NCBI RefSeq assembly: GCF_022848905.1
Contig: NZ_JAFIRA010000002.1
Span: forward strand, 62,001 to 126,000
Direction: 5' to 3'
DNA: 64,000 nt
Source of the DNA: Thermostichus vulcanus str. 'Rupite'
Lineage (GTDB): Bacteria; Cyanobacteriota; Cyanobacteriia; Thermostichales; Thermostichaceae
This document shows, one piece after another, positions 8,569-49,806 of the stretch. The stretch's first letter is position 1, and each line of letters starts with the position of its first letter. Under the pieces are notes generated by a model. The model had not been told where the DNA came from. It ran no database searches and worked only from the letters and a program-made list of their open reading frames with translations. The translations under genes and the position numbers were made by a program.

Positions 8569-9318
8569 TCAAGATTTCTCCAAGGTACCCGGATCCACGC
8601 CCAGTTCCCGCAGCTTTTGGGCCAGCCGTTCCGCTCGTTGCTCGGCGCTTTCAGCCCGTTGCCGCTCCTGCTCGGCCCGTTGCCGCTCGATTTTTTCTGC
8701 TTCTTCCGGCAGAGGTACCAACTCCCCATTCGGGAAAAAATATCGCAGCTGACGGTTGTGAATGCCCAGGTACAACCCCAGCACCTTGCTCCACCGCCAC
8801 CCTTGCTCTCTCGGCACAATCTCCTCGTATCGCTCTCCCCCTTCCCCCAGCCGCAAACCCATAAACTCCAGCGTCTCTGGCGAAAAATAAAAATACTCCG
8901 GGGTTCTAAAAATCGTCTGATACAGTTCTCGCTTCTCGGTGCGATCCACCTCAGCGGTGGACTCCGAGAGCAGCTCGATGATCAAATCGGGGTATTTGCC
9001 CCCTTCTTCCCAAACCACCCAGGAGCCGCGCGGGTGATTGGACACCCCCTTGACCAAAAACAGGTCCGGCCCACGAAAGTCTTTGGTCTTCAGTTGCTCG
9101 CGGCTGTAGTAGACAGTGAGGTTCCAGGCCAGGAAATAGTCGCTGCGGTCTTGCCAGAGGCGGTGGAGGCAGGTAACCAAGATGAGCAGCTGCAGGGCAT
9201 GGAGGGAGTGTTCCATTTCCGGTTCATCGCTGAGGAGCCCCTGGGCGGAGGGCATGAGCTCTGCTAATTGCTGGCGGGTGAGGGAGTTGGGGTGGGTGGA
9301 TTTGTCTTGAACCAGCAT
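8569..9318 (-). CDS. Uma2-family (DUF820) protein, tandem copy 1
   Basis: A 249-residue Uma2/DUF820 protein with a restriction-endonuclease-like fold: GPDLFLV, then PDLIIELLSEST and TEKRELY supply the expected D...ExK-type residues, followed by the family's EYFYFSPETLEF. The last 40 residues are a charged coiled coil with QERQRAE-like units ending QKLRELGVDPGTLEKS. Uma2 genes are expanded in cyanobacteria; their biological role is not established. Copies 2 and 4 are nearly identical to it over the catalytic domain, and all copies share the ELGVDP tail. The stop lies about 40 bp beyond the pilin terminator, in convergent orientation. Confidence 0.85.
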   Translation of the reverse strand: MLVQDKSTHPNSLTRQQLAELMPSAQGLLSDEPEMEHSLHALQLLILVTCLHRLWQDRSDYFLAWNLTVYYSREQLKTKDFRGPDLFLVKGVSNHPRGSWVVWEEGGKYPDLIIELLSESTAEVDRTEKRELYQTIFRTPEYFYFSPETLEFMGLRLGEGGERYEEIVPREQGWRWSKVLGLYLGIHNRQLRYFFPNGELVPLPEEAEKIERQRAEQERQRAESAEQRAERLAQKLRELGVDPGTLEKS

Positions 9319-9453
9319 GGCTATACCAAGTCCGGTGCCTCCAGCCTAGCCCAAAGCACAGTCGAGTAGCGCCGCAAGGCTTTGGGGTTGGGCCTGGGTG
9401 AGATCCTGGATAAACGCTTTGTCGTGCACAGGAAGGGATCCGTGGCCTTTTCT
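9319..9453. repeat. Repeated spacer of the Uma2 array, copy 1 (135 bp)
   Basis: This spacer, beginning next to the copy 1 start codon with GGCTATACCAAGTCCGGTGC, recurs almost base for base at 10243-10377 and, slightly longer, at 12039-12185. It presumably carries the promoter of each downstream copy and shows that duplication units included spacer plus gene. Confidence 0.9.
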
Positions 9454-10242
9454 CTAACTTAGAGTACCCGGATCCACCCCCAGTTCCCGCAGCTTTTGGG
9501 CCAGCCGTTCCGCCCGTTGCTCGGCGCTTTCAGCCCGTTGCCGCTCCTGCTCAGCTCGTTGCCGCTCTTGTTCCATCCGTTGCCGCTCGATTTTTTCTGC
9601 TTCTTCCGGCAGAGGTACCAACTCCCCATTCGGGAAAAAATACCGCAGCTGACGGTTGTGAATGCCCAGGTACAACCCCAGCACCTTGCTCCACCGCAAC
9701 CCTTGCAAGGACTCCGTCCCGCTGACGCGATCTGTCGGCGCAATCTCCTCGTATCGCTCTCCCCCTTCCCCCAGCCGCAAACCCATAAACTCCAGCGTCT
9801 CTGGCGAAAAATAAAAATACTCTGGGGTTCTAAAAATGCTCTGATACAGTTCTCGTTTTTCGGTGCGATCCACATTAGCGGTGGACTCCGAGAGCAGCTC
9901 GATGATCAAATCCGGGTATTTCCCCCCTTCCTCCCAAACCACCCAGGAGCCGCGCGGGTGATTGGACACCCCCTTGACCAAAAACAGGTCTGGCCCACGA
10001 AAGTCTTTGGTCTTCAGTTGCTCGCGGCTGTAGTAGACAGTGAGGTTCCAGGCCAGGAAATAGTCGCTGCGGTCTTGCCAGAGGCGGTGGAGGCAGGTAA
10101 CCAAGATGAGCAGCTGCAGGGCATGGAGGGAGTGTTCCATTTCCGGTTCATCGCTGAGGAGCCCCTGGGCGGAGGGTATGAGCTCTGCTAATTGCTGGCG
10201 GGTGAGGGAGTTGGGGTGGGTGGATTTGTCTTGAACCAGCAT
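9454..10242 (-). CDS. Uma2-family (DUF820) protein, tandem copy 2
   Basis: A 262-residue near-duplicate of copy 1. The first 150 residues differ at only a few positions (for example LAELIPSAQ versus LAELMPSAQ, TANVDRT versus TAEVDRT). It has a nine-residue-scale insertion around TDRVSGTESLQG before the RWSKVLGLYLGIHN motif, and one more QERQRAE-type repeat in the C-terminal coiled coil. The putative nuclease residues (GPDLFLV, PDLIIELLSES, TEKRELYQ) are intact, so the copy appears functional. It is preceded by the 135-bp repeated spacer. Confidence 0.85.
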   Translation of the reverse strand: MLVQDKSTHPNSLTRQQLAELIPSAQGLLSDEPEMEHSLHALQLLILVTCLHRLWQDRSDYFLAWNLTVYYSREQLKTKDFRGPDLFLVKGVSNHPRGSWVVWEEGGKYPDLIIELLSESTANVDRTEKRELYQSIFRTPEYFYFSPETLEFMGLRLGEGGERYEEIAPTDRVSGTESLQGLRWSKVLGLYLGIHNRQLRYFFPNGELVPLPEEAEKIERQRMEQERQRAEQERQRAESAEQRAERLAQKLRELGVDPGTLS

Positions 10243-10377
10243 GGCTATACCAAGTCCGGTGCCTCCAGCCTAGCCCAAAGTACGGTCGAGTAGCTCCGCA
10301 AGGCTTTGGGGTTGGGCCTGGGTGGGATCCTGGATAAACGCTTTGTCGTGCACAGGAAGGGATCCGTGGCCTTTTCT
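10243..10377. repeat. Repeated spacer of the Uma2 array, copy 2 (135 bp)
   Basis: Near-identical to 9319-9453 and to 12039-12185; it separates the stop of Uma2 copy 3 from the start of copy 2 on the minus strand. Confidence 0.9.
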
Positions 10378-11214
10378 CTAACTTAGAGTACCCGGATCCA
10401 CGCCCAGTTCCCGCAGCTTTTGGGCCAGCCGTTCCGCTCGTTGCTCGGCGCTTTCAGCCCGTTGCTCGGCGCTTTCAGCTCGTTGCCGCTCCTGCTCAGC
10501 CCGTTGCCGCTCCTGCTCAGCCAATAGCCGTTCTTGTTCTGCTTCGGTGGGCAGCAATTCCCCCACTTCGGTGGCCCAGCGGATCCAGGTGGTATCAATC
10601 CCTCGGAAGGAGCCTGTCCACTTCACTAGGTACAGCCCCAGCGCCTCACTCTTCAGTCTTCCCTGAGCATCCGGCTCAATCGGCACATACTGACTACCCA
10701 GCAAGCGAAACCCGGCCCAGTCCTCCGGCGCAAACGGATCAAACCAAAAGTATTCCGGTACCCGAATGATTTGTTCGTAAAGCTGCTTTTTGTGGGTCTT
10801 ATCCGCTTGAGCAGTGCTCTGAGAAAGCAGCTCAATCACCACATCCGGTCCTTTGCCTTGCTCCCAAATCACCCAGCTTTTCCGTTCCCCCTTGGGTACC
10901 CCCAGAACAACAAAATAATCGGGGCCTTTGAAATCGCGGCTGCGAGACTGTTCCAGGCTGTAGTAGAGGAACATATTGCCGCTGACAAAGCCATCCGGTC
11001 GTTTTTGCAGCCAGGTTTCCGTGATGCTGATCAGCAGATCCATTTGGCATTTGTGCCGCCAGGTTTCCATGGGAATGCCATCATCGTAAGGGAGTTCATC
11101 TTGGCCAGGGGGCCATTCAGGAAGGTAGGCCGCATCGGGTTCTTGTAGCAAGGGATCCGCTGACTCCACAACGGGGTTGGTCATGGTAGGGTCTCCGAAA
11201 TCGTTTGAATTCAC
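10378..11214 (-). CDS. Uma2-family (DUF820) protein, divergent tandem copy 3
   Basis: A 278-residue Uma2 protein whose catalytic domain is clearly diverged from its neighbours (GPDYFVVLGVPKG, PDVVIELLSQSTAQ, THKKQLYEQ, EYFWFDP) while its last 25 residues, RAERLAQKLRELGVDPGTLS, match copies 1, 2 and 4 almost exactly. That mosaic suggests gene conversion or exchange at the 3' end. The coiled coil holds both QERQRAE and SAEQRAE units. The GTG at 11214 overlaps the TGA of copy 4 (GTGA), suggesting translational coupling; the ATG at 11184 (MTNPVVESAD) is the alternative start. Confidence 0.82.
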   Translation of the reverse strand: MNSNDFGDPTMTNPVVESADPLLQEPDAAYLPEWPPGQDELPYDDGIPMETWRHKCQMDLLISITETWLQKRPDGFVSGNMFLYYSLEQSRSRDFKGPDYFVVLGVPKGERKSWVIWEQGKGPDVVIELLSQSTAQADKTHKKQLYEQIIRVPEYFWFDPFAPEDWAGFRLLGSQYVPIEPDAQGRLKSEALGLYLVKWTGSFRGIDTTWIRWATEVGELLPTEAEQERLLAEQERQRAEQERQRAESAEQRAESAEQRAERLAQKLRELGVDPGTLS

Positions 11215-12038
11215 TTTTCTAGGCTGGCAGGATCCACCCCCAGTTCCCGCAATTTTTGCGCCAGGCGCTCTGCCCGTTGGCGTTCCTGTTCTGTACGCTG
11301 CCGCTCTTGTTCTGCCCGTTGGCGTTCCTGTTCTGCCCGCTGCCGCTCTTGTTCTGCCCGTTGGCGTTCCTGTTCTGCCCGCTGCCGCTCTTGTTCTGCC
11401 CGTTGGCGTTCGAGGCGCTCGGCTTCTTCCGGCAAGAGCGCCAATTCCCCTGTCGGCAAAAAGTATCTCAGTTGACGGTTGTGAATGCCTAGGTACAACC
11501 CCAGCACCTCACTCCAGCGCCACCCTTGCTCTGTGGCAGGGATCTCTTCGTAACGCAATCCCTCCTGTAACCGCAAACCCATAAACTCCAGCGTCTCTGG
11601 CGAAAAATAAAAATACTCCGGGGTTCTAAAAATCGTCTGATACAGTTCTCGTTTTTCGGTGCGATCCACCTCAGCGGTGGACTCCGAGAGCAGCTCGATG
11701 ATCAAATCCGGGTATTTGCCCCCTTCTTCCCAAACCACCCAGGATCCCCGTGGGTGATTGGACACCCCCTTGACCAAAAATAGGTCCGGCCCACGAAAGT
11801 CTTTGGTCTTCAGTTGCTCGCGGCTGTAGTAGACAGTGAGGTTCCAGGCCAGGAAGTAGTCGCTGCGGTCTTGCCAGAGGCGGTGGAGGCAGGTAACCAA
11901 GATGAGCAGCTGCAGGGCATGGAGGGAGTGTTCCATTTCCGGTTCATCGCTGAGAAGCCCCTGGGCGGAGGGCATGAGCTCTGCTAATTGCTGGCGGGTG
12001 AGGGAGTTGGGGTGGGTGGATTTGTCTTGAACCAGCAT
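11211..12038 (-). CDS. Uma2-family (DUF820) protein, tandem copy 4
   Basis: A 275-residue paralogue whose first 150 residues are almost identical to copies 1 and 2 but whose middle (LRLQEGLRYEEIPATEQG) differs. Its coiled coil is the longest of the array: six to seven consecutive seven-residue units of the QERQRAE type, encoded by alternating 21-bp DNA units. It ends QKLRELGVDPASLEK. It is the first gene of the minus-strand array after the 5' fragment and overlaps copy 3 by four bases, so copies 4 and 3 are probably translated from one mRNA. Confidence 0.85.
   Translation of the reverse strand: MLVQDKSTHPNSLTRQQLAELMPSAQGLLSDEPEMEHSLHALQLLILVTCLHRLWQDRSDYFLAWNLTVYYSREQLKTKDFRGPDLFLVKGVSNHPRGSWVVWEEGGKYPDLIIELLSESTAEVDRTEKRELYQTIFRTPEYFYFSPETLEFMGLRLQEGLRYEEIPATEQGWRWSEVLGLYLGIHNRQLRYFLPTGELALLPEEAERLERQRAEQERQRAEQERQRAEQERQRAEQERQRAEQERQRTEQERQRAERLAQKLRELGVDPASLEK
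11276..11412 (-). repeat. 21-bp coding minisatellite in Uma2 copy 4
   Basis: On the plus strand two 21-bp units, one containing GTTGGCGTTCCTGTTCTG and one containing CTGCCGCTCTTGTTCTG, alternate about three times. Each encodes one QERQRAE heptad on the minus strand. Copies 1-3 of the array have fewer units, so unit number is variable, as expected from slippage or unequal recombination. Confidence 0.9.
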
Positions 12039-22575: not shown

Positions 22576-23882
22576 GAAAAGCAGCGTAAAGCCCCCGGTT
22601 TCTAACCGGGGGATATAAGCGCACAGGCTGAATTTATTCAGCAACAGAAATAGTACATACAATAGTCCCCATGAAACGGGTCACCACCACACTCAAGCTC
22701 AAGTTTCTTGACCTCAATGCGGTCAAAGCAGAGATGTTCGACCAGACGGTTTGTGCGACAACCGAACTGGCAAACGAACTGCTCCGCATCAGTCCGAAGG
22801 AACGAAAAGCATTGACAACCGCCAAAGTGGTGACACCACTCAAGTCGGCCCTCTCCAACCAGGTGATTCGTGTCCTGAAGGGGAAAGCCGGCCAGCGGGT
22901 CAAACACTTCAAAGTGTTCTGGCCAGAGGTCAACAACCAAAACTGGAAGCTGCACAAAGTAGGTAGCACCTACTCGGTGAGTTTTCCCACGATTCAGGGT
23001 GACAAGCGGGTTCCCCTTGAGGTTAGCAGTTCCTACTATGCCGAGCGTCTTGAGCGCATCCTGGCCGAACAGGATTGTGAACGGGGAACCTTGAAACTCA
23101 TGAAGCTACGGGGCTGTTGGTACGCGGTTGTATCTATCACTTGGGAAGTTCCCGAAGTGAAGAGTACGGAGCGACTGGGTGTTGACCGTGGGCAGAACCG
23201 TTTGGCAGTGGCGGCCACCCGTTGGGGTCGGGCGGTGTTTTTTGGGGGTGGAGAGGTAGCCTATCGTCGTCGTCGTTTCCAGAAGCGTCGTGCCCAGTTG
23301 CAACAGGCGGGTAAATACCGAGCACTCAAGCGACTGGAGCGCAAAGAAGCCCGTTGGATGAGGGCGGTCAACCACACCGTGAGCCGCCGCATTGTACGGT
23401 TTGCCAAGGCGGTGAATGCAGATGTGTGGATGGAAGACCTCTCGGGTATCCGCCAATCCAGACAGAGCCAGAAGGCGCGTTCGGATGCCGGGAAATCGCG
23501 CCATACCTGGTCGTACTACGACCTGGAGTGGAAGGTTGCCTACAAGCTGGAAATGGCGGGCAGGACGCTGCATAAACGTCCTGCTGCCTACACATCCAAA
23601 ACCGACCACAGGACAGGATTGATTGGGAAAAGGAGTGGGCATTTGTTCACCGGGCAGGACGGGTATTGCTGTGATGCCGACTGGAATGCCGCAATGAACC
23701 TAGCCCAGTGGGACGGGTTTTCGTGTCCTTTGAGTCTAAAAGAAGCCCTGCCCGTAATAGGTAGGGTCGGCTCAGGGGATGGGGTAGTTGGCAATCCCCT
23801 GAACTCCATGAATCCCTCACAGCTTCAAGCTGTGGGGAGCTAGAAGGGAGAATCCCCCGGTTAGAAACCGGGGGAGTGTCAA
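22576..23882 (+). mobile_element. TnpB-only IS200/IS605-family element, copy 1 (1307 bp)
   Basis: Left and right borders were set by comparing the two copies. Both are preceded by TTAC and end in TCAA, the left target and right cleavage tetranucleotides known from IS608. Each terminus carries a strong hairpin with CCCCCGGTT/AACCGGGGG stem; a second left hairpin is GCTGAA-TTTA-TTCAGC. The element holds only tnpB, so it needs a TnpA transposase in trans. It contains no GGATCC, unlike the host DNA. No target duplication is expected for this family. The right end supplies the stop codon of the convergent DUF429 gene. Confidence 0.9.
22671..23843 (+). CDS. tnpB: RNA-guided nuclease TnpB homologue, zinc finger degenerate
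   Basis: A 390-residue TnpB/OrfB protein. RuvC motifs are present: LGVDRGQNRLAV with Asp172, VWMEDLSGI with Glu255, and CCDADWNAAMN with Asp335/Asp337. The Zn-ribbon normally found just before the last motif (paired CxxC, as in TSQTCSxCG...) is replaced by YTSKTDHRTGLIGKRSG and GQDGYCC, leaving no CxxC pair. Known TnpBs use an RNA made from the element's right end to cut DNA beside a TTAC-like motif; the catalytic acids suggest this could still work. There is no Shine-Dalgarno sequence; TACAAT ends 7 bp before the ATG, hinting at a leaderless or poorly translated mRNA. Confidence 0.9.
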   Translation: MKRVTTTLKLKFLDLNAVKAEMFDQTVCATTELANELLRISPKERKALTTAKVVTPLKSALSNQVIRVLKGKAGQRVKHFKVFWPEVNNQNWKLHKVGSTYSVSFPTIQGDKRVPLEVSSSYYAERLERILAEQDCERGTLKLMKLRGCWYAVVSITWEVPEVKSTERLGVDRGQNRLAVAATRWGRAVFFGGGEVAYRRRRFQKRRAQLQQAGKYRALKRLERKEARWMRAVNHTVSRRIVRFAKAVNADVWMEDLSGIRQSRQSQKARSDAGKSRHTWSYYDLEWKVAYKLEMAGRTLHKRPAAYTSKTDHRTGLIGKRSGHLFTGQDGYCCDADWNAAMNLAQWDGFSCPLSLKEALPVIGRVGSGDGVVGNPLNSMNPSQLQAVGS

Positions 23883-36275: not shown

Positions 36276-36315
36276 TAACGTCCTCATCATTTAGATGTCT
36301 TTAGGAGTAGTCCAG

Positions 36316-37374
36316 ATGACCATAGCGGTAGGACGCGTGCGTCAGGAGCGAGGATGGTTCGACATCGTCGACGACTGGCTCAAGCGCGACAGATTTGTGT
36401 TTATCGGCTGGTCCGGGCTGTTGCTGTTTCCCTGTGCCTACTTGGCCTTGGGGGGCTGGCTGACCGGCACCACCTTTGTGACCTCCTGGTACACCCACGG
36501 GTTGGCCAGTTCCTACTTGGAGGGGGCCAACTTTCTGACGGTGGCAGTTTCCACGCCTGCCGACAGCATGGGCCACAGCCTGTTGCTGTTGTGGGGCCCG
36601 GAAGCGCAAGGGGACTTCACCCGTTGGTGCCAAATCGGGGGTCTGTGGACCTTTGTGGCTTTGCACGGAGCCTTTGGCCTGATTGGCTTCATGCTGCGGC
36701 AATTTGAGATTGCCCGCTTGGTGGGGGTACGGCCCTACAACGCCATCGCCTTCAGCGCGCCGATTGCGGTGTTTGTGAGCGTGTTTTTGATTTATCCCTT
36801 GGGGCAGAGCAGCTGGTTTTTTGCCCCCAGCTTTGGGGTTGCGGGGATTTTCCGGTTTCTGCTGTTTTTCCAAGGGTTCCACAACTGGACCTTGAACCCG
36901 TTCCACATGATGGGAGTAGCGGGTGTGCTGGGAGGAGCGCTGCTGTGTGCCATTCATGGGGCGACGGTGGAGAACACGTTGTTCCGGGATGGGGAAGGGG
37001 CGAGCACCTTCCGGGCGTTTGAACCGACGCAAGCGGAAGAGACCTATTCGATGGTGACGGCGAACCGGTTTTGGAGCCAGATATTTGGGATTGCGTTTTC
37101 CAACAAGCGGTGGCTGCACTTTTTCATGTTGTTTGTGCCGGTGACGGGTCTGTGGATGGCCAGCATTGGGGTTGTGGGGTTGGCGTTGAACCTGCGGGCG
37201 TATGACTTTATCAGTCAGGAGACGCGGGCGGCGGAGGACCCTGAGTTTGAGACGTTCTACACGAAGAACATCTTGTTGAACGAGGGGATCCGGGCCTGGA
37301 TGGCGCCGCAGGACCAGCCGCATGAGCGCTTTGAGTTCCCTGAAGAGGTGCTCCCCCGCGGCAATGCTCTGTAA
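36316..37374 (+). CDS. psbD: Photosystem II reaction centre protein D2
   Basis: The 352-residue product is D2 throughout: [52 protein letters not shown], five membrane helices, [27 protein letters not shown] with the chlorophyll PD2 histidine, [11 protein letters not shown] and the C-terminus [11 protein letters not shown]2 binds QA and half of P680. The ATG at 36316 is preceded by AGGAG eight bases upstream and gives exactly the usual 352 residues; the frame is open seven codons further. In most cyanobacteria psbC starts inside the 3' end of psbD at a GTG in CGTGGT; here the same codons read CGCGGC, so that start is gone. It has a single GGATCC site. Confidence 0.98.
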
Positions 37375-37527
37375 GTGGAGTGTGCTTCTTGTGTAAACGC
37401 TTGGGTTTTTCTGGATCCCTTGCATGAGTGTTGAAGATCGGGCGCTTGCCTGTTTTGGGTGGGCGCTCGACGATAAACAAAACCCTTTTTTCTATCAACT
37501 GTTGCAGTTTTTGGGAGGCTGGCCTCA

Positions 37528-38907
37528 GTGACCTCAACGACGTTTAGTTCTGCAGCGATGCAAGACCGCACCCAGGGTGGATTTGCCTGGTGGGCGGGTA
37601 ATGCACGCTTGATCAACCTTTCTGGTCGGCTTTTGGGTGCCCATGTAGCCCATGCTGGCTTGATCGTCTTCTGGGCGGGGGCGATGCTGCTTTTCGAAGT
37701 GGCTCACTTCACCCCGGATCGGCCCATGTATGAGCAGGGTCTGATCCTGATGCCCCACGTGGCAACCTTGGGTTGGGGCGTTGGCCCTGGCGGCGAAGTT
37801 GTCGATACGTTTCCTTACTTTGTGATCGGTGTGCTGCACCTGATTTCCAGCGCAGTGCTGGGTCTGGGTGGCATTTACCACGCAGTGCGTGGCCCGGAAA
37901 CCTTGGAGCAATCCTATCCGTTTTTTGGCTACGACTGGAAAGATAAAAACAAGATGACCACCATCATCGGCATTCACCTGATCCTGCTGGGCTTGGGTGC
38001 TTTCCTGTTGGTGGCGAAGGCCGTTTGGTTCGGTGGTGTCTACGATACCTGGGCTCCTGGTGGTGGCGATGTGCGGGTGATCACCAACCCGACCTTGAAC
38101 CCCGCAGTGATTTTCGGCTATTTGGTGAAGTCTCCCTTTGGTGGTGAAGGCTGGATTGTCAGCGTTGACAACATGGAAGACGTGATCGGTGGCCACATTT
38201 ACATCGGCATCATCTGCATTGCCGGTGGAATTTGGCACATTCTCACAAAGCCCTTTGGCTGGGCTCGCCGCGCCTTCATCTGGTCCGGGGAGGCCTACCT
38301 CTCCTACAGCCTGGCGGCGGTTTCCTTGATGAGCTTCATCGCCACCTGCTTCATCTGGTTCAACAACACCGTTTACCCAAGCGAGTTCTACGGCCCAACT
38401 GGCCCGGAAGCCTCTCAAGCACAGGCCCTTACTTTCATTGTTCGTGACCAACGCTTAGGGGCCAACATCAGCCAGGCCCAAGGTCCCACCGGTTTGGGTA
38501 AATACCTGATGCGCTCGCCCACGGGTGAGATCATCTTCGGGGGTGAAACCATGCGCTTCTGGGATGTACGTGCACCTTGGAAAGAGCCCCTCTTAGGCCC
38601 GAATGGCTTGGACTTGGATAAGCTCAAGAACGACATTCAACCCTGGCAAGCTCGCCGTGCTGTGGAATACATGACCCATGCGCCGCTGGGATCCCTGAAC
38701 TCCGTGGGCGGTGTGGCTACCGAGATCAACACGGTGAACTTCACCAGTCCCCGCACTTGGTTGGCGGCTCACAACTTCATTCTGGGCTTCTTGTTCTTTG
38801 TCGGGCACCTCTGGCATGCCGGTCGGGCTCGGGCGGCGGCGGCTGGTTTTGAGAAAGGCTTGGATCGCGAAAGCGAACCGGTCTACAAGATGAAGCCGTT
38901 GCGTTAA
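37528..38907 (+). CDS. psbC: Photosystem II CP43 chlorophyll protein
   Basis: The 459-residue product is CP43: [28 protein letters not shown], six membrane helices with paired histidines, the large lumenal loop with [16 protein letters not shown] and [14 protein letters not shown], which holds the Glu and Arg that contact the Mn4Ca cluster, and the C-terminal [20 protein letters not shown]. It is the inner antenna of photosystem II. The GTG at 37528 has its own GGAGG site nine bases upstream, and the gene lies 153 bp after the psbD stop, so it is translated independently. A later ATG at 37558 lacks such a site. Confidence 0.98.
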
Positions 38908-48499: not shown

Positions 48500-49806
48500 G
48501 AAAAGTAGCGTAAAGCCCCCGGTTTCTAACCGGGGGATATAAGCGCACAGGCTGAATTTATTCAGCAACAGAAATAGTACATACAATAGTCCCCATGAAA
48601 CGGGTCACCACCACACTCAAGCTCAAGTTTCTTGACCTCAATGCGGTCAAAGCAGAGATGTTTGCCCAGACGGTTTGTGCGACAACCGCACTGGCAAACG
48701 AACTGCTCCGCATCAGTCCAAAGGAACGAAAAGCATTAACAACCGCCAAAGTGGTGACACCACTCAAGTCGGCCCTCTCCAACCAAGTGATTCGTGTCCT
48801 GAAGGGGAAAGCCGGCCAGCGGGTCAAGCACTTCAAAGTGTTCTGGCCAGAGGTCAACAACCAAAACTGGAAGCTGCACAAAGTAGGTAGCACCTACTCG
48901 GTGAGTTTTCCCACAATTCAGGGTGACAAGCGGGTTCCCCTTGAGGTTGGCAGTTCCTACTATGCCGAGCGTCTTGAGCGCATCCTGGCTGAGCAGGATT
49001 GTGAACGGGGAACCTTGAAACTCATGAAGCTACGGGGCTGTTGGTACGCGGTTGTATCTATCACTTGGGAAGTTCCCGAGGTGAAGAGTACGGAACGGTT
49101 AGGTGTTGACCGGGGGCAGAACCGTTTGGCAGTGGCGGCCACCCGTTGGGGTCGGGCGGTGTTTTTTGGGGGTGGAGAGGTAGCCTATCGTCGTCGTCGT
49201 TTCCAGAAGCGTCGTGCCCAGTTGCAACAGGCGGGTAAATACCGAGCACTCAAGCGACTGGAGCGCAAAGAAGCCCGTTGGATGAGGGCAGTCAACCACA
49301 CCGTTAGCCGTCGCATTGTGCGGTTTGCCAAGGCGGTGAATGCGGATGTGTGGATGGAAGACCTCTCAGGTATCCGCCAATCCAGACAGAGCCAGAAGGC
49401 GCGTTCGGATGCCGGGAAATCGCGCCATACCTGGTCGTACTACGACTTGGAGTGGAAGGTTGCCTACAAACTGGAAATGGCAGGTAGAACTCTACACAAG
49501 CGCCCTGCTGCCTACACATCCAAAACCGACCACAGGACAGGATTGATTGGGAAAAGGAGTGGGCATTTGTTCACCGGGCAGGACGGGTATTGCTGTGATG
49601 CCGACTGGAATGCCGCAATGAACCTAGCCCAGTGGGACGGGTTTTCGTGTCCTTTGAGTCTAAAAGAAGCCGTATCTGTAATGGGTACGGTCGGCTCAGG
49701 GGATGGGGTATTTGGCAATCCCCTGAACTCCATGAATCCCTCACAGCTTCAAGCTGTGGGGAGCTAGAAGGGAGAATCCCCCGGTTTCTAACCGGGGGAG
49801 TGTCAA
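48500..49806 (+). mobile_element. TnpB-only IS200/IS605-family element, copy 2 (1307 bp)
   Basis: Same length and ends as copy 1 (preceded by TTAC, ending TCAA), with only scattered substitutions. Left hairpin identical to copy 1. The right hairpin has the loop TCT where copy 1 has AGA, so the copy 1 right hairpin is the exact reverse complement. No tnpA is present. The element again abuts, and supplies the stop codon of, a convergent minus-strand gene. It contains no GGATCC. Confidence 0.9.
48595..49767 (+). CDS. tnpB: RNA-guided nuclease TnpB homologue, zinc finger degenerate (copy 2)
   Basis: A 390-residue protein differing from copy 1 at about a dozen positions (for example MFAQ versus MFDQ, TTALAN versus TTELAN, EVGSS versus EVSSS, and a few residues near EAVSVMGTVGSGDGVFG). 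RuvC residues Asp172, Glu255 and Asp335/337 are conserved and the Zn-ribbon cysteines are again missing, so the loss predates the two insertions and was kept while the reading frame stayed open. Many of the nucleotide differences are silent, which suggests selection for the protein or recent spread. The same TACAAT box precedes the ATG. Confidence 0.9.
   Translation: MKRVTTTLKLKFLDLNAVKAEMFAQTVCATTALANELLRISPKERKALTTAKVVTPLKSALSNQVIRVLKGKAGQRVKHFKVFWPEVNNQNWKLHKVGSTYSVSFPTIQGDKRVPLEVGSSYYAERLERILAEQDCERGTLKLMKLRGCWYAVVSITWEVPEVKSTERLGVDRGQNRLAVAATRWGRAVFFGGGEVAYRRRRFQKRRAQLQQAGKYRALKRLERKEARWMRAVNHTVSRRIVRFAKAVNADVWMEDLSGIRQSRQSQKARSDAGKSRHTWSYYDLEWKVAYKLEMAGRTLHKRPAAYTSKTDHRTGLIGKRSGHLFTGQDGYCCDADWNAAMNLAQWDGFSCPLSLKEAVSVMGTVGSGDGVFGNPLNSMNPSQLQAVGS

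Follow-up and report, generated by a model that had tools for sequence, protein, structure and literature searches.

In the 64-kb stretch of Thermostichus vulcanus str. 'Rupite' DNA that was analyzed (hereafter, the window), psbD and psbC, encoding D2 and CP43, respectively, do not overlap; psbD ends at position 37374 and psbC begins at 37528. The window probably shows the outcome of a natural separation ("un-overlapping") of the two genes that has recurred in several lineages, with duplication of the psbD tail as its proposed mechanism. The overlap itself is described, in the portion of PMC9325196 available, as present in most cyanobacteria and all plastids, and as lost in far-red paralogs.

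Because a split keeps the functions of the D2 end and the psbC start apart, the formerly common stretch must have been either duplicated or made anew. As proposed here, the last 30 bp or so of psbD would ancestrally have served double duty, coding for the C-terminus of D2 and, in another frame, providing the start signals of psbC: a Shine-Dalgarno (SD) site, GAGG, within the Glu-Val codons and a GTG within CGTGG. In several lineages, this stretch would have been duplicated, the two copies being set apart by a spacer that carries a hairpin. Of these, the upstream one would thereafter encode D2 only, its psbC signals being lost by synonymous changes; the downstream copy would serve only the start of psbC, retaining the SD site, 9 nt and GTG as its remainder decayed. 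In the window's order, such decay would be complete.

The psbD-psbC Junction in the Window

The features of the junction are as follows.
36303-36307, + strand: AGGAG, likely SD site of psbD, read from the sequence, with the ATG 8 nt further on
36316-37374, + strand: psbD (D2, 352 aa), ATG to TAA, by similarity to other D2 proteins
37345-37362, + strand: psbD tail GAG GTG CTC CCC CGC GGC, with the SD-like GAGG retained and the former psbC GTG lost
37375-37527, + strand: intergenic spacer between psbD and psbC, 153 bp, from the sequence
37439-37469, + strand: G+C-rich spacer hairpin, conserved across six genomes of the genus (the window's among them)
37514-37518, + strand: GGAGG, SD site of psbC, with the GTG 9 nt further on, a spacing as in overlapping genomes
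37528-38907, + strand: psbC (CP43, 459 aa), GTG to TAA
38973-38988, + strand: terminator-like hairpin and T-run 3' of psbC, from a consensus scan only

The D2 encoded by the window shares 95-98% identity with full-length D2 from four genomes of the family, and its final codons read GAA GAG GTG CTC CCC CGC GGC AAT GCT CTG TAA. An earlier reading of this DNA from the sequence alone (the sequence-only reading) had claimed that the two genes are separate, that the GTG of the usual CGTGGT was destroyed with D2 unchanged, and that psbC starts from a ribosome-binding site (RBS) of its own 153 bp past psbD; the gene ends, the CGC and GGC codons and the GGAGG at 37514-37518 bear out all three. The window thus agrees with the canonical overlapping pair of cyanobacteria and plastids in its genes, their adjacency, order (psbC downstream) and strand, the GTG start and the 9 nt between GAGG and GTG, although its SD site lies outside psbD. 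It differs in that the genes have no DNA in common, the last psbD codons (CCC CGC GGC) hold no GTG, and a 153-bp spacer with a hairpin stands between them.

Upstream of 37528, the psbC reading frame runs through 17 open codons, which include no ATG, GTG or TTG, back to an in-frame TAA at 37474. Barring a frameshift, this stop excludes a CP43 start within psbD, which the sequence-only reading had named as a finding that would overturn it. The same layout is found in nine of nine genomes of the order, three of them assembled as single contigs, and hence the gap is neither a matter of chance nor of faulty assembly. A true CP43 start within psbD, or a gap created by assembly error, is therefore exceedingly improbable.

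Distribution of Split and Overlapping Junctions

The gaps in the nine genomes of the order, window included, measure 153, 156, 137, 183, 187, 184, 181, 151, and 95 bp (range, 95-187 bp); among the congeners are two genomes assembled as one contig each, at 2,932,766 and 3,046,682 bp. A class-wide sample comprised 388 genomes at least 90% complete, eight of which belong to the window's order. Overlap was recognized by a pattern consisting of the D2 codons CCN-GAR-GAR-GTN, CGTGG, and a motif of the psbC start region 30-60 nt further on. This pattern was matched in 308 of the 388, confirming overlap as the usual state, although a few of these could be false since, among the matches listed, four genomes (G272, G288, G291, and G294) gave an extra match at a stand-alone psbD beside the real junction. 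Two further genomes, G319 and G355, overlap by layout and were missed by the pattern. The junction of G319 (contig C741, L294) has the overlap layout in a fragmented genome with CGC in place of CGT, such that the usual GTG is absent; this is perhaps an error or an alternative start.

Twenty-six of the 388 junctions were read as split, namely the eight of the window's order, 13 others for which D2 coding was checked, and those of G115, G255, G351, G302, and G347. Another 28 were inferred to be split, two in f22-g24 and 26 in f23, as the pattern matched no member of these groups and all members read (two and six, respectively) were split. In the last 24, the junction lay at contig ends or was unread, or psbC was not found; sub-counts by family were taken from a printed table. 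Split junctions occurred in 10 of 44 families (f1, f2, f20, f22, f23, f28, f33, f37, f43, and f44), two of which are mixed, with overlap in G285 of f22 and in G329, G375, and G377 of f33. The arrangement is consequently not peculiar to this genome, as had been implied by the first description, but is found throughout the order and in members of eight other families.

A second set, comprising the best 80 named loci of a longer scan and perhaps including some species of the 388-genome sample, gave 72 overlapping junctions (69 assigned by script; L136, L191, and L198 from reading the printed tails), six split and two unassigned (L148 and L187). The named splits are those of Microcoleus FACHB-DQ6 and FACHB-61, Microcoleus vaginatus WJT46-NPBG5, Symplocastrum torsivum CPER-KK1, a Coleofasciculus MAG, and an Oscillatoriaceae MAG.

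Loss of psbC Signals From the psbD Tail

A psbD tail released from its psbC duty is expected to drift at synonymous sites, and such drift was seen when 98 distinct overlapping junction sequences, with CGT as a set condition, were compared with 33 split genomes. The Glu codon contributing to the SD site was GAG in 98/98 of the overlaps vs. 6/33 of the splits (Fisher p 1.5e-22, for observations that are phylogenetically non-independent). The adjoining Glu codon, outside the GAGG core, was distributed between GAG and GAA at 50:48 in overlaps and 10:23 in splits. The Arg codon was CGC in 24 of the 33 splits; the remaining nine retained CGT and had lost the SD site instead, and thus CGCGGC is not required for a split. 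GAG and CGT, hence SD and GTG, occurred together in all 98 overlapping sequences and in none of the 33 splits. The psbD tail of the window likewise does not have both, its GAGG being kept and its GTG lost.

Relics of the psbD Tail in psbC Leaders

The leaders of psbC in other lineages retain copies of the psbD end. With Symplocastrum torsivum, psbD ends in CCTCGTGGTAACGCTCTGTAA, a hairpin spacer follows, and then AAAGAGGTACTACCCCGTGGTAACGCTCTCTAATAG, a second psbD end that serves as the leader and first codons of psbC. Against a consensus of 80 distinct overlapping leaders from verified overlaps, the relic matched at 15/15 positions after the GTG in this locus (L195), in Microcoleus FACHB-DQ6 and FACHB-61 (L135 and L144), and in G115, G255, G351, and G302; in the same seven, the spacer between SD and GTG matched at 5-8 of 9 positions, and an intact psbD ended 87-157 bp upstream. 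With M. vaginatus and G347, the leaders agree instead with GAAACGCCCTTTAAT, the other common variant. In Microcoleus, Symplocastrum, and their kin, the relic amounts to approximately 30 bp of the psbD 3' end and retains the SD, the GTG and even the TAA of psbD, which is out of frame for psbC and gives the direction of change as overlap to split.

For 15 of the 33 split leaders, resemblance to the psbD tail gave p < 0.05 in the SD-GTG spacer as well as after the GTG, where p values were obtained by letter shuffles and corrected neither for kinship nor for the number of tests. The resemblance is graded: near-perfect in f33, f43, and Symplocastrum, half-decayed in f37, f44, and f28, and faint in f22, f23, and f20. 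For f20 and f23, the leaders provide partial evidence of a duplication.

In the window's order, none of the nine leaders is more similar to the psbD tail than expected by chance (p 0.22-0.83 for the spacer and 0.36-0.89 for the coding region), including that of the window itself (p 0.82 for both spacer and coding regions). The window has the layout of the split class, with a complete psbD upstream and a psbC with its own SD and GTG downstream, and given its relic-free leader it is filed under that layout and not as a proven case of tail duplication. The duplication route in this order is accordingly suggested by analogy with the other lineages. Without a relic, an insertion or rearrangement might instead have displaced psbC in this order, with a new SD and GTG arising in place and the likeness to other lineages confined to the outcome; the distance of 9 nt, an ordinary one between SD and start, would fit this. 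Nevertheless, the psbC start of the window occupies the homologous position, with the conserved AWW motif 19 codons further on, within the 18-26 of the overlapping genomes listed, and the clearest relics, those of other lineages, display the duplicated tail. The leader of a sister family (G001), TGGAGGTTCTCTCCT-GTG, agrees with the overlaps at five of nine spacer positions (p 0.22, not significant). On balance, displacement by insertion or rearrangement appears rather unlikely, and tail duplication remains the preferred reading for the window's order.

Ancestral State and Number of Origins

The Gloeobacterales are the first-branching cyanobacteria. Comparison of the early-branching junctions, as had been suggested in the sequence-only reading, revealed overlap in seven of eight genomes from f14 and f32, which we take to be Gloeobacterales-type families; the eighth, G106, ends at a contig edge. 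As psbC starts in f14 and f32 at the identical codon used in other overlaps, the overlap is most simply regarded as ancestral, and it probably is, given the position of the Gloeobacterales at the root. The sequence-only reading had named a common ancestral split as a second finding that would overturn it; with overlap probably ancestral, this objection does not apply.

The number of origins was examined on an rpoB tree of 58 genomes; this single-gene tree is unrooted and was obtained by a quick search, many of its branches are weak, and G335 was left unlabelled. Five changes between split and overlap were needed on this tree, and a single clade of split genomes was rejected (AU p 0.021). The split arose more than once; this is the safe statement, and four or five origins are likely if overlap was never regained. 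The deep split lineages (f1, f2, f23, and f20) may represent one event, as their placement in one clade was not rejected (p 0.75).

It can also be envisaged that the split was ancestral for all cyanobacteria outside the Gloeobacterales, and that overlap re-formed later by deletion between repeats. A direct repeat would permit such re-fusion; on the rpoB tree, the window's order, f23 and f20 group close to the Gloeobacterales-type genomes, with the members read of these three being split, and their grouping as a clade was not rejected. This history is nonetheless improbable, as the overlap of f14 and f32 sits at the identical codon, and the relics with an out-of-frame psbD stop place overlap before split in the other families.

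The Spacer Hairpin and Associated Repeats

In the helix at 37439-37469, 92.9% of cells were paired across the six genomes of the genus, rising to 94.4% when a small RBS helix was added, compared with 38-44% for versions slid along the alignment. No two-sided changes were found in the spacer helix of these six genomes, and covariation did not pass the shuffle control. For the window, the evidence of a hairpin is weak: folding of its whole spacer gave a z of -1.22 (p 0.149, not significant by itself), and that of the first 75 nt past the psbD stop a z of -0.07. Nearly all splits nonetheless have a stem-loop between the psbD stop and the RBS of psbC, 31 of 33 spacers having a folding z below -1 (22 of 24, then 9 of 9 further). 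At 13 split loci, the 75 nt after the psbD stop folded better than the 75 nt before psbD (medians -2.0 vs. -0.1; Wilcoxon p 0.017).

The spacer hairpin may act as a 3'-end stabilizer or a processing hairpin. Within it, a consensus scan placed a weak terminator-like site at 37439-37452 (seven such sites in the region, 4.3 expected); directly 3' of the full hairpin, a U-run is absent. The gap contained no sigma-70-like promoter on the + strand and one match on the - strand, and an Rfam scan at E <= 1 returned no match within it. Across the window's order, folding at the psbC start (z -0.6 to -1.65) did not point significantly to a mini-hairpin sequestering the SD.

With G255, G351, and G115, a dispersed intergenic repeat of the CCAAAATCCAAAATCTAAAATCG type makes up the last 28 nt of the spacer, directly before the relic. 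Their spacers gave 43-45 matches per genome, nearly all at the relic end (40 of 231-319 candidates scored), and that of G302 gave six; in the family of the former three, repeat DNA has entered or grown at the junction. The 64 kb of the window hold 198 copies of GGATCC, where base composition predicts 18, and 68 copies of GGGATCCC (about 52-fold); GCGATCGC, presumably HIP1, does not occur in the 64 kb. Several relatives also carry GGATCC between psbD and psbC.

The Second psbD Copy

The genome assembly (3.72 Mb, 120 contigs) holds a second psbD on contig 32 that is 99% identical to that of the window, differing at 18 of 1059 nt. The identity extends from the ATG to one base past the stop, with unrelated flanks. 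Copies in six other split genomes (G007, G005, G004, G001, G176, and G028) differ at 1-24 positions and those of the overlapping G142 at 26, in each case with the same limits of identity and unrelated flanks. The copies evolve in concert, for which reason both copies in the window's genome end in CGCGGC. Gene conversion from the second psbD was considered as the agent of splitting and rejected; the copies are homogenized, yet their 3' flanks are unrelated, and so no transferred 3' flank is visible. Gene conversion accounts for the common CGCGGC but not for the split. In f23, a single psbD was found in each of six genomes searched (E <= 1e-60).

In the drafts of G003, G006, and G008 (L059, L060, L066, L067, and L069), the only traces of psbD were pairs of end fragments at the edges of contigs, the pattern expected if two near-identical copies had collapsed. 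Such collapse easily blinds surveys of this junction on draft genomes.

Functional Implications and Related Systems

In the split arrangement, CP43 would be initiated at its own RBS, independently of ribosomes that finish psbD at an overlapping stop and start. The message is probably still common to both genes in the window, and coupling of D2 and CP43 synthesis would be reduced. The consequence may be modest, as in tobacco the coupling of psbD and psbC is only partial and no prerequisite for CP43 synthesis, according to the part of PMC8133689 available. The repeated loss indicates that the overlap is dispensable: approximately one in seven sampled genomes is split (26 read and 28 inferred of 388, with 24 unassigned), and PSII assembly is thus possible without it. 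Lineages that have no overlap constitute a natural experiment on D2/CP43 coupling. More tentatively, selection could have produced the split several times as a regulatory module, in which a hairpin between psbD and the freed psbC start would allow each half of the message to be stabilized, processed or attenuated on its own, CP43 thereby being set independently of D2. Hairpin plus relic, which dispersed intergenic repeats help to form in the Microcoleus-like family, would in that case be the recurrent route for dismantling an ancient overlapping pair. We consider this a possible but doubtful extension.

In the engineered "decompression" of overlapping genes, the common DNA is copied and each gene is given its own. 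The split resembles this in that each gene has its own copy of formerly common DNA; unlike it, the split is natural and repeated, and its intermediates are preserved. These intermediates reveal how an overlapping gene pair may separate. The overlap is likewise not conserved in the psbD and psbC paralogs of FaRLiP, as stated in the available portion of PMC9325196. In contrast to those paralogs, the psbC and psbD of the window resemble by sequence the ordinary genes of relatives, and a 99% identical second psbD lies elsewhere. With Chlamydomonas, where psbD is described as monocistronic in the part of PMC8133689 available, D2 is made apart from a psbD-psbC operon, whereas the genes of the window are still adjacent and collinear. 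The titles and opening abstract lines returned by literature searches contained no description of a split ordinary psbD-psbC pair or of a tail relic.

Other Features of the Window and Genome

The Rfam model of IsrR, the antisense RNA of isiA, matched window positions 37936-38122 on the - strand, antisense to psbC, at 164.5 bits. It also matched four isiA-like genes tested and the psbC of two other genomes, and so the model cannot separate isiA from psbC. Besides psbC, the genome (G000) encodes four more CP43/IsiA-like antenna genes on contigs C75, C22, and C47 (L013, L014, and L015); the best match of the antenna-gene search is one that we take to be CP47-like. The order on contig C75 is an IsiA-like gene, a flavodoxin-like gene, and a longer IsiA-like gene with a C-terminal extension. 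Elsewhere in the window, two nearly identical ORFs of 390 aa lie on the + strand at 22671-23843 and 48595-49767, presumably encoding TnpB-type transposon proteins. On the - strand at 8569-12038, three near-identical ORFs and one related ORF, which we assume to be Uma2-like, stand in tandem with RAEQERQ-type repeats near their C-termini.
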